Origin: Phyllobacterium sp. T1293
GTDB taxonomy: Bacteria > Pseudomonadota > Alphaproteobacteria > Rhizobiales > Rhizobiaceae
DNA: 64,000 nt
Direction of reading: 5' to 3'
NCBI RefSeq assembly: GCF_020731415.2
Contig: NZ_CP088273.1
Coordinates: 2,671,001 to 2,735,000 of the forward strand
Part shown: one piece after another, positions 36,361-37,287 of the stretch
How the letters are laid out: every line of letters starts with the position of its first letter
How positions within the stretch are numbered: position 1 is the first letter of the stretch
The notes under the pieces: generated by a model
The model's input: only the letters and a program-made list of their open reading frames with translations
Databases searched by the model: none
What the model was told of the DNA's origin: nothing
Position numbers and translations under genes: made by a program

Positions 36361-36387
36361 TGTCACATCCGCCGGTTTTCGTTCGTC
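36361..36387 (+). promoter_or_regulatory. ECF41-type promoter, plus strand
   Basis: TGTCACA (36361-36367), a 16-base spacer and CGTC (36384-36387) match the published ECF41 consensus TGTCACA-N16-CGTC exactly. Transcription would start about 30 bases before the sigma gene, which suggests the sigma factor activates its own gene. Confidence 0.8.
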
Positions 36388-36395
36388 ATTGCTTT

Positions 36396-36422
36396 GACGG
36401 AACAGGATGAGGAAATGTGACA
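36396..36422 (-). promoter_or_regulatory. ECF41-type promoter, minus strand
   Basis: On the minus strand TGTCACA (36422-36416), a 16-base spacer and CGTC (36399-36396) again match the ECF41 consensus. It points toward the CMD gene, leaving a leader of about 110 bases. Its -35 box overlaps the ribosome site of the sigma gene and its -10 is 8 bases from the -10 of the plus promoter, so the two promoters face away from each other over 62 bases. Confidence 0.8.
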
Positions 36423-36423
36423 G

Positions 36424-37287
36424 ATGAACGAGAAAAAATTTCTGGCAGAGCAATTCGAGGCCAATCGCACGCATTTGCGGCAGGTTGCCTACCGTATGCT
36501 GGGCTCCATGACCGAAGCTGAGGATGCGGTGCAGGAAGTCTGGCTGCGGCTCAACCGCGCGGAAACGGGTGATGTCGATAATCTTGGCGGGTGGCTGACA
36601 ACCGTGATCTCCCGCATCTGTCTCGACATGCTGCGCGCACGCAAATCACGCCGTGAGGACCAGCTAACCCCGCAAACGCCAGAACCGGTGGCGGGCGGCG
36701 ATCCTGAACGCGATGTGGTGATGGCGGATTCAGTTGGTGCCGCACTTTTGGTGGTATTGGAGAAGCTGGCGCCTGCCGAGCGGCTGGCTTTCGTGCTGCA
36801 CGATATGTTCGGCGTGTCCTTTGACGAAATCGCGCCCATTGTCGATCGCACGCCGGATGCGGCGCGGCAGCTTGCCAGCCGGGCACGGCGGCGGGTGCAA
36901 GGAACCGAGACCACACCGGAACGCAACCTTGCCCGGCAGCGTGAAGTGGTAACTGCCTTTCTGGCCGCGTCGCGTGGCGGGGATTTCAGTGCGCTTCTGG
37001 CGCTGCTTGATCCGGATGTGGTCTTCCGTGCCGACAATACTGCGGTACAGATGGGCTCACTGGCGGAAATTCGTGGTGCCGAGGCTGTGGCCAATACATT
37101 CAAGGGACGAGCACAGGGCGCTCTGCCAGCACTTATCGATGGTGCGCTGGCTATTGTTGTCTCTATTCAGGGCCAGTTGCGTGTGGTGCTGAACCTGACA
37201 ATGGTGGATGAAAAAATCACCGCCATCGAGGCTATCGCCGATCCGGAACGCCTCGGTGGCTTTGATCTGGTGATGCTGGACAATTGA
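36424..37287 (+). CDS. ECF41-type RNA polymerase sigma factor with SnoaL-like C-terminal domain
   Basis: The 287-residue protein has sigma region 2 (about 12-80: LRQVAYRMLGSMTEAEDAVQ, EVWLRLNRAE, TVISRICLDMLRARKSRRED), sigma region 4 (about 110-165: LAPAERLAFVLHDMFGVSFD, EIAPIVDRTPDAARQLASRA, RRRV) and a SnoaL/NTF2-like domain to the end, with ADPERL in the place of the ECF41 NPDKL motif. ECF41 factors lack an anti-sigma gene and are controlled by their own C-terminal domain. The divergent CMD gene is their usual target. AGGAAAT precedes the ATG at 36424. Confidence 0.93.
   Translation: MNEKKFLAEQFEANRTHLRQVAYRMLGSMTEAEDAVQEVWLRLNRAETGDVDNLGGWLTTVISRICLDMLRARKSRREDQLTPQTPEPVAGGDPERDVVMADSVGAALLVVLEKLAPAERLAFVLHDMFGVSFDEIAPIVDRTPDAARQLASRARRRVQGTETTPERNLARQREVVTAFLAASRGGDFSALLALLDPDVVFRADNTAVQMGSLAEIRGAEAVANTFKGRAQGALPALIDGALAIVVSIQGQLRVVLNLTMVDEKITAIEAIADPERLGGFDLVMLDN

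Follow-up and report, generated by a model that had tools for sequence, protein, structure and literature searches.

Divergent ECF41 loci are the closest described counterparts of the locus considered here. In such loci, the promoter sequence TGTCACA-n16-CGTC often precedes both genes, and among 55 loci with the <ECF< >COE> arrangement P_ECF was recorded in 36 and P_COE in 41, as given in the available text of the study (Wecke et al., 2012, PMC3426412). YVGPWLPEP and NPDKL have been presented as the protein signatures of ECF41 in the accessible parts of two reports (PMC7730460, PMC3426412). Bidirectional bacterial promoters are a recent topic and are described for shared -10 sites in one article (PMC12825309). 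In the Escherichia coli sigma70 promoters of this kind, competition between polymerases is negligible at basal activity and becomes substantial once one direction is activated; moreover, the constrained transcription is less noisy, according to the available sections of the article (PMC12825309).

The window (the whole 64-kb stretch of DNA that was analysed) contains an ECF sigma factor gene and, divergent from it, a gene for a carboxymuconolactone-decarboxylase (CMD)/AhpD-like protein. We consider it likely that a 62-bp interval between them acts as one bidirectional promoter, in which two facing ECF41-type promoters with a superposed core would be served by a single polymerase at a time and would make the sigma feedback self-braking.

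The promoter pair and the genes of the locus

The elements of the locus are the following, clade A being the sigma clade that holds the window protein (see below).

36361-36387, plus strand: predicted ECF41-type promoter toward the sigma gene, -35 TGTCACA at 36361-36367, N16, -10 CGTC at 36384-36387; exact match
36422-36396, minus strand: predicted ECF41-type promoter toward the CMD gene, -35 TGTCACA at 36422-36416, N16, -10 CGTC at 36399-36396; exact match
36384-36399, no strand: shared core CGTC-N8-GACG, on the basis of a gap of 8 in 73/80 listed scan loci and in 30/41 protein-selected clade-A loci
36409-36415, plus strand: Shine-Dalgarno-like GAGGAAA of the sigma gene, from sequence, within the spacer of the CMD promoter
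36424-37287, plus strand: ECF sigma factor, 287 aa, with sigma2, sigma4 and a SnoaL/NTF2-like C-terminal domain
36280-35822, minus strand: CMD/AhpD-like protein, 152 aa, divergent from the sigma gene, with a CxxC motif (CSVC)

The preliminary description had reported two TGTCACA-N16-CGTC sites with 16-base spacers on opposite strands. Both are there, as TGTCACATCCGCCGGTTTTCGTTCGTC (plus strand, 36361-36387) and TGTCACATTTCCTCATCCTGTTCCGTC (minus strand, 36422-36396), and the consensus is the one found in the available text of PMC3426412. From left to right, the -35 box of the sigma promoter is followed by its -10 box, 8 bp, the -10 box of the CMD promoter and the -35 box of the latter; the promoters face each other, with their -10 boxes exactly 8 bp apart. 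The sequence that marks ECF41 loci ahead of their COE gene is found here as an exact match on both genes. The positions of the two sites fit the earlier proposal that one serves the sigma gene and the other the divergent CMD gene, and the pair recurs at this place in related as well as distant genomes.

Exact matches to TGTCACA-N16-CGTC number 2 in the 64-kb window, against a mean of 0.01 in 100 dinucleotide shuffles, none of which contained two. When up to two mismatches are allowed, the window count of 13 is not above the chance expectation of 15.6. Throughout the whole genome, sites are not enriched over a reversed-pattern control, either as exact matches (3 versus 6) or with one base relaxed (13 versus 12). 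The genome-wide number of sites proves nothing, because the reversed control has more of them, and an argument for a regulon drawn from these consensus counts was dropped. What is not random is the placement, with two oppositely oriented sites inside one intergenic region.

ECF41 sigma factors combine sigma2 and sigma4 with a SnoaL/NTF2-like C-terminal extension of about 100 aa, and the window sigma factor has this domain order: it matches Pfam Sigma70_r2 and Sigma70_r4_2 above the cut-off, and its SnoaL_2 match is weak (25.2 bits for a cut-off of 27). In a fold search of the model, its predicted C-terminus resembles NTF2/ketosteroid-isomerase folds; SigJ and SigG1 are the closest relatives with a solved structure. 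The CMD protein is recognized by PF02627 (2.2e-19) and TIGR00778 ahpD_dom (1.4e-15). The neighborhood is of the ECF41 type, in which the sigma gene is accompanied by a CMD, oxidoreductase or epimerase gene (COE) and by no anti-sigma gene: the CMD gene is divergent here, and the flanking genes on either side match SCO1 and an Mrp/NUBPL-type ATPase. Phage records gave no match to the sigma factor. Within the genus of the window, the clade-A sigma factor is patchy, being found in 7/20 genomes, its own included, at E 1e-80 or better.

It had also been proposed that the minus-strand -35 box overlaps the ribosome site of the sigma gene and that the two promoters constrain each other. The box (36416-36422) does fall within the ribosome-binding region, between GAGGAAA (36409-36415) and the ATG (36424), but it adjoins the Shine-Dalgarno motif and does not overlap it. 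Interference at the ribosome site is weakened as a proposal because of this arrangement, and a promoter element at the DNA level does not by itself hinder translation. Mutual constraint is nevertheless made likely by the fixed 8-bp gap, the proximity of the -35 box to the ribosome-binding site not being the standout feature. As a separate observation, positions 36415-36420 read ATGTGA, which is the complement of the CMD-promoter -35 box plus the preceding base. This hexanucleotide is a start codon immediately followed by a stop; within the leader predicted for the sigma transcript, it precedes the sigma ATG by 9 nt in the same frame, and 80% of gap-8 elements retain its first A.

The third exact site of the genome directly precedes a CMD-like ORF, behind which lies a second sigma gene bearing canonical ECF41 motifs. 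This paralogous sigma factor (L001 1501-2876 / L234, G000:C1 near 1,782,600) contains YVGSWLPEP, DGGG and NPEKL. Clade-A and canonical ECF41 sigma factors with the same promoter consensus thus coexist in one genome, which raises the question of cross-talk, and cross-talk between the two is possible.

Distribution of the 8-bp gap and of the sigma clades

In the order-wide and collection scans, the gap between the -10 boxes was left free from 0 to 30 bp. The pair, for which the preliminary description proposed a scan of related genomes, is carried by 13/13 loci retrieved by protein similarity (that of the window and 12 orthologues, 61-97% identity), always with a gap of 8 and with both spacers of 16. 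An order-wide scan gave matches in 15/397 genomes, 14/15 of them at gap 8, and the reversed pattern gave none (0/397). When a collection of genome contigs was scanned, at least 119 stretches matched, of which 80 were listed and analysed. Among these listed matches, 73 of 80 loci have gap 8; the other seven have gaps of 5, 9, 10, 11, 11, 21 and 23, and a related sigma gene accompanies five of these seven. A sigma ORF of the window's family is found within 200 nt of the motif in 77/80 listed loci and in 72/73 of those with gap 8, the exception being L103, whose stretch ends 55 nt from the motif. The 72 gap-8 loci with such a sigma ORF belong to Actinomycetota (34), Pseudomonadota (29), Chloroflexota (4), Acidobacteriota (2) and Myxococcota (2), with one unplaced. 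Facing pairs with gap 8 are therefore found in at least five phyla, a list that rests on a motif-selected scan.

The sigma start codon, as called automatically, is 0-6 nt from the motif in 56/72 listed loci, and at -14 or 17-117 nt in the other 16/72. A translation constraint as the cause of the fixed spacing was discarded, since the distance to the start codon varies and the gap does not. A general effect of ECF promoters was also discarded: facing pairs with a GGAAC -35 pattern occur in only 2/385 genomes, with gaps of 16 and 25, and in as many genomes with the reversed control (one -35 element and one spacer length were covered). Partner genes, one per locus, were chosen with an automatic ORF rule, which gave an ORF of at least 60 aa in 73/77 listed loci; 36/73 of these have a CMD match in Pfam, and some of the picked ORFs are probably not true partners.

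Two elements of the collection deserve mention in their own right. In Ktedonobacter robiniae (L126, 6028-6087), the element is a perfect inverted repeat, with 27-bp arms around 6 bp, and corresponds to two identical facing promoters, which suggests an origin by inverted duplication. In a Chloroflexota stretch (L078, 5243-5317), the element contains GGGGTGACGGA as a direct repeat, which shifts the second -10 box to gap 23; no sigma gene of the window's family is found beside this element.

In order to avoid the circularity of a motif-based selection, 118 distinct related sigma loci were chosen by protein and then scanned. In a FastTree tree of 191 rows (these 118 and 73 motif-selected ones), for which a long-branch warning applies, the sigma factors split into two clades with full support. 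Clade A, which holds the window, comprises 33/118 protein-selected loci, 23/33 of which have the strict gap of 8. Clade B, made of canonical ECF41 proteins, comprises the other 85/118, and gap 8 is found in 0/85. Clade-B loci have an exact promoter in the sigma direction 400-1400 nt upstream in 48/85 cases, a promoter within 400 nt, with up to one mismatch, in 17/85, and back-to-back promoters in 4/85. Two further searches yielded 10 new loci. Clade A gained 8 of these, and gap 8 is present in 7 of the 8. The other two (L266 and L267), whose proteins carry WLPEP, NPDK and DGGG, fall in clade B and lack gap 8, bringing canonical ECF41 loci to 0/87 for gap 8.

Overall, gap 8 occurs in 30/41 protein-selected clade-A loci. 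It is found in 28/28 of those from the window's order, its own included, and in a locus on plasmid p42e of the laboratory symbiont R. etli CFN 42 (L259, genes RHE_RS25555 and RHE_RS25560); outside that order and R. etli, the strict gap of 8 is found in 1/12 (L178). Of the 11 clade-A loci that fail the strict gap, 9 are actinobacterial plasmid loci, and all 9 such loci fail. These failures are diverse. L256, from a Streptomyces anthocyanicus plasmid, keeps gap 8 with GTTAC instead of GTCAC in both -35 boxes. In the same locus, the sigma region 4 helix reads KMLASRARRK versus RQLASRARRR and differs at usually conserved positions; a co-change of the sigma factor and of both promoters is possible. 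L252 and L253 retain the partner promoter along with TGTC-N8-GACG but have no sigma-side -35 box, and L265 keeps the partner promoter alone. The gap is 29 in L248 and the promoters are back to back in L179. Inspection of L250, L251 and L254 showed no promoter pair; in L249 and L255 the pair is absent and no divergent gene is annotated nearby, L255 keeping the sigma side alone. Separately, L180 (G350:C32:85127-85980) has a promoter pair with gap 8, and its sigma matches fall in two overlapping pieces in different frames, so that the sigma gene looks frameshifted.

The two clades also differ in protein motifs. In the window sigma factor, the sigma2-sigma4 linker lacks YVGPWLPEP and has LTPQTPEP instead, and the C-terminal extension lacks NPDKL and has ADPERL instead. 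W[LI]PEP is found in 2/106 clade-A versus 65/85 clade-B proteins, an NPDKL-like motif in 1/106 versus 77/85, and DGGG, noticed in the alignment, in 1/106 versus 79/85, the 106 clade-A rows including 73 that were motif-selected. The ECF41 label of the preliminary description thus holds for the promoter and the neighborhood but not for the sigma protein, which is devoid of the two published signature motifs. Because of this failure of the signatures, clade A is named here an ECF41-like sister group. Nevertheless, the promoter, the neighbor gene and the domain order indicate a system working like ECF41. Other SnoaL-bearing groups are ECF56, ECF205, ECF294 and ECF295, in the available parts of two surveys (PMC8999054, PMC7730460), and clade A is perhaps one of these four.

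Proposed superposition of the two promoters and competing explanations

Single ECF41 promoters offer a clue to the value of eight. Counted from the end of CGTC, position 8 is a pyrimidine (C or T) in 88% and position 9 a purine (A or G) in 94% of 48 unique single promoters taken from canonical ECF41 loci. A pyrimidine followed by a purine is the usual signature of positions -1 and +1. Because of this step, +1 is predicted at position 9. For a Sinorhizobium meliloti ECF41 target with a mapped start, Table 1 of PMC6180224 gives a sequence that finishes in CGTC-ATGGTGTC-G, where, by our own reading of the table note, the final G would be the start; in two other species the start is a G, according to the available text of Wecke et al. 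(PMC3426412). The 92 unique gap-8 elements have a T at position 8 in 90% of cases, mirrored by an A in 91% for the opposite strand. Their position 9 is occupied by the G of GACG; the search pattern imposes this G but not the T. With a gap of 8, the two promoters are superposed: the TGACG would supply T-1/G+1 to one promoter and at the same time complement the -10 box (CGTCA) of the other. Transcription would then start 9 nt after each CGTC, with a predicted +1 at G36396 for the sigma gene and at the G opposite C36387 for the CMD gene, and each -10 box would coincide with the predicted start of the opposing promoter.

It could be argued instead that two ordinary ECF41 promoters came close by chance and that their spacing, inherited from one ancestor, has no function. 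The confinement of gap 8 to one sigma clade (91/106 rows, 73 of the 106 being motif-selected, versus 0/85) fits such a single origin, and dual promoters in divergent ECF41 loci are known with no remark on their geometry in the available text of PMC3426412. Moreover, other gaps occur (7/80 listed scan loci, and 29 in L248), and gap 8 is found in just 1/12 protein-selected clade-A loci outside the window's order and R. etli. Co-inheritance could also preserve a spacing without selection, given that the 40 non-box positions still share a median pairwise identity of 47.5% between loci. However, the gap of 8 has been held across at least five phyla while the spacer letters diverged (5th percentile of the same identity, 30%), and it is constant though the distance to the sigma start codon varies (56/72 at 0-6 nt, 16/72 elsewhere). 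It also keeps a T at -1, which the boxes alone do not require. On balance, we hold a functionless spacing to be unlikely.

Somewhat less probable again is the idea that a single promoter is functional and that the mirrored half is kept for another reason, for instance as the ribosome-binding region of the sigma gene. The partner-side -35 box does overlap the translation start region, its first base being G in 43/72 and T in 18/72 loci, unlike the sigma side, where T is found in 48/72; in addition, L252 and L253 keep the partner side only and L255 the sigma side only. Against this, the -35 box, N16 and the -10 box are retained in both halves, the half-site persists in the 16/72 loci whose called start codon is not adjacent to the motif, and translation does not explain a GACG 16 bp upstream. 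Also, the two -35 boxes of L256 are altered alike.

Finally, the element is an inverted repeat of 60 bp, perfect over 27-bp arms in Ktedonobacter (L126), but its being the operator of a dimeric regulator and not a promoter pair is very improbable and was dropped because, outside the boxes, the symmetry between its halves does not exceed that between halves taken from different loci (0.35 versus 0.35); besides, a single half matches a promoter with a mapped start and tested sigma dependence in other bacteria, in the available parts of two studies (PMC3426412, PMC6180224), and the Pfam matches of the 73 picked partner ORFs (one pick per locus) include no regulator family.

Returning to the bidirectional promoter, it can be proposed that the same stretch of DNA is melted for either direction. 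An RNA polymerase covers about -55 to +20. With such a footprint, simultaneous occupancy of interlocked promoters should be impossible. One polymerase at a time would leave either toward the sigma gene, giving positive feedback, or toward the CMD/AhpD-like enzyme, the output. When the sigma factor is scarce, the two directions would hardly compete; competition would set in as the holoenzyme rises, and at high holoenzyme the enzyme promoter would brake sigma autoactivation. The sigma factor and the CMD/AhpD-like protein would in this way be kept in proportion. Both the competition and the brake are what we infer by analogy with the E. coli promoters.

This arrangement suggests how a feedback loop could limit itself with no anti-sigma factor; the sigma clade concerned is also devoid of the motif pair said to keep ECF41 proteins inactive. 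The activity of the sigma factor is probably set by its own C-terminal NTF2-like domain and not via the ECF41 WLPEP-NPDKL contact. The regulatory region of an alternative sigma factor itself appears to use an interlocked promoter pair, and the spacing rule is testable base by base. For a broader reading we see even chances: an ECF41 sister clade, present in at least five phyla, would control itself and an enzyme from a bidirectional promoter superposed to the base, in which each -10 box would double as the initiator of the opposing promoter and so fix the gap at 8, polymerases would have to alternate, and positive autoregulation would limit itself, with regulator and output held in a set ratio.

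Relation to known systems

Dual promoters at divergent ECF41 loci are already known, and what appears to be new is the fixed 8-bp facing geometry together with the superposition. Literature searches, of incomplete coverage such that a prior description is possible, returned no report of either.

The nearest solved structure, both by sequence (9.1e-44) and by fold search, is SigJ of Mycobacterium tuberculosis (PDB 5xe7). Like the window sigma factor, with which it shares 34-35% identity in the fold alignment, SigJ has an ECF core with a SnoaL-like C-terminus. It is reported as an ECF41 protein in the available text of a review, whereas the window sigma factor belongs to a clade without the ECF41 motifs; SigJ itself is outside the tree.

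The ECF41/COE loci of Wecke et al. (2012) resemble the window locus, as far as the available text goes, in the promoter consensus, in the kind of partner gene and in promoters that are often present on both genes. They differ in that this text contains no facing geometry, fixed gap or shared core, all of which are found in the window, and in that its description of ECF41 includes WLPEP, which the window sigma factor lacks.

Warman et al. (2026, PMC12825309) describe bidirectional promoters in E. coli whose geometry is comparable: according to the available sections of the article, opposite-facing polymerases exclude each other on the same short stretch, from starts that are close. However, the E. 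coli promoters share one pseudo-symmetric -10 element, whereas the window has two complete interlocked promoters with separate -10 boxes 8 bp apart. The distance between starts in E. coli is mostly 18 bp, also 10 and 23 bp, as compared with a predicted 9 bp in the window. Lastly, the E. coli promoters use sigma70, whereas the window locus would use an alternative sigma factor, with a spacing that has mostly one value across phyla.
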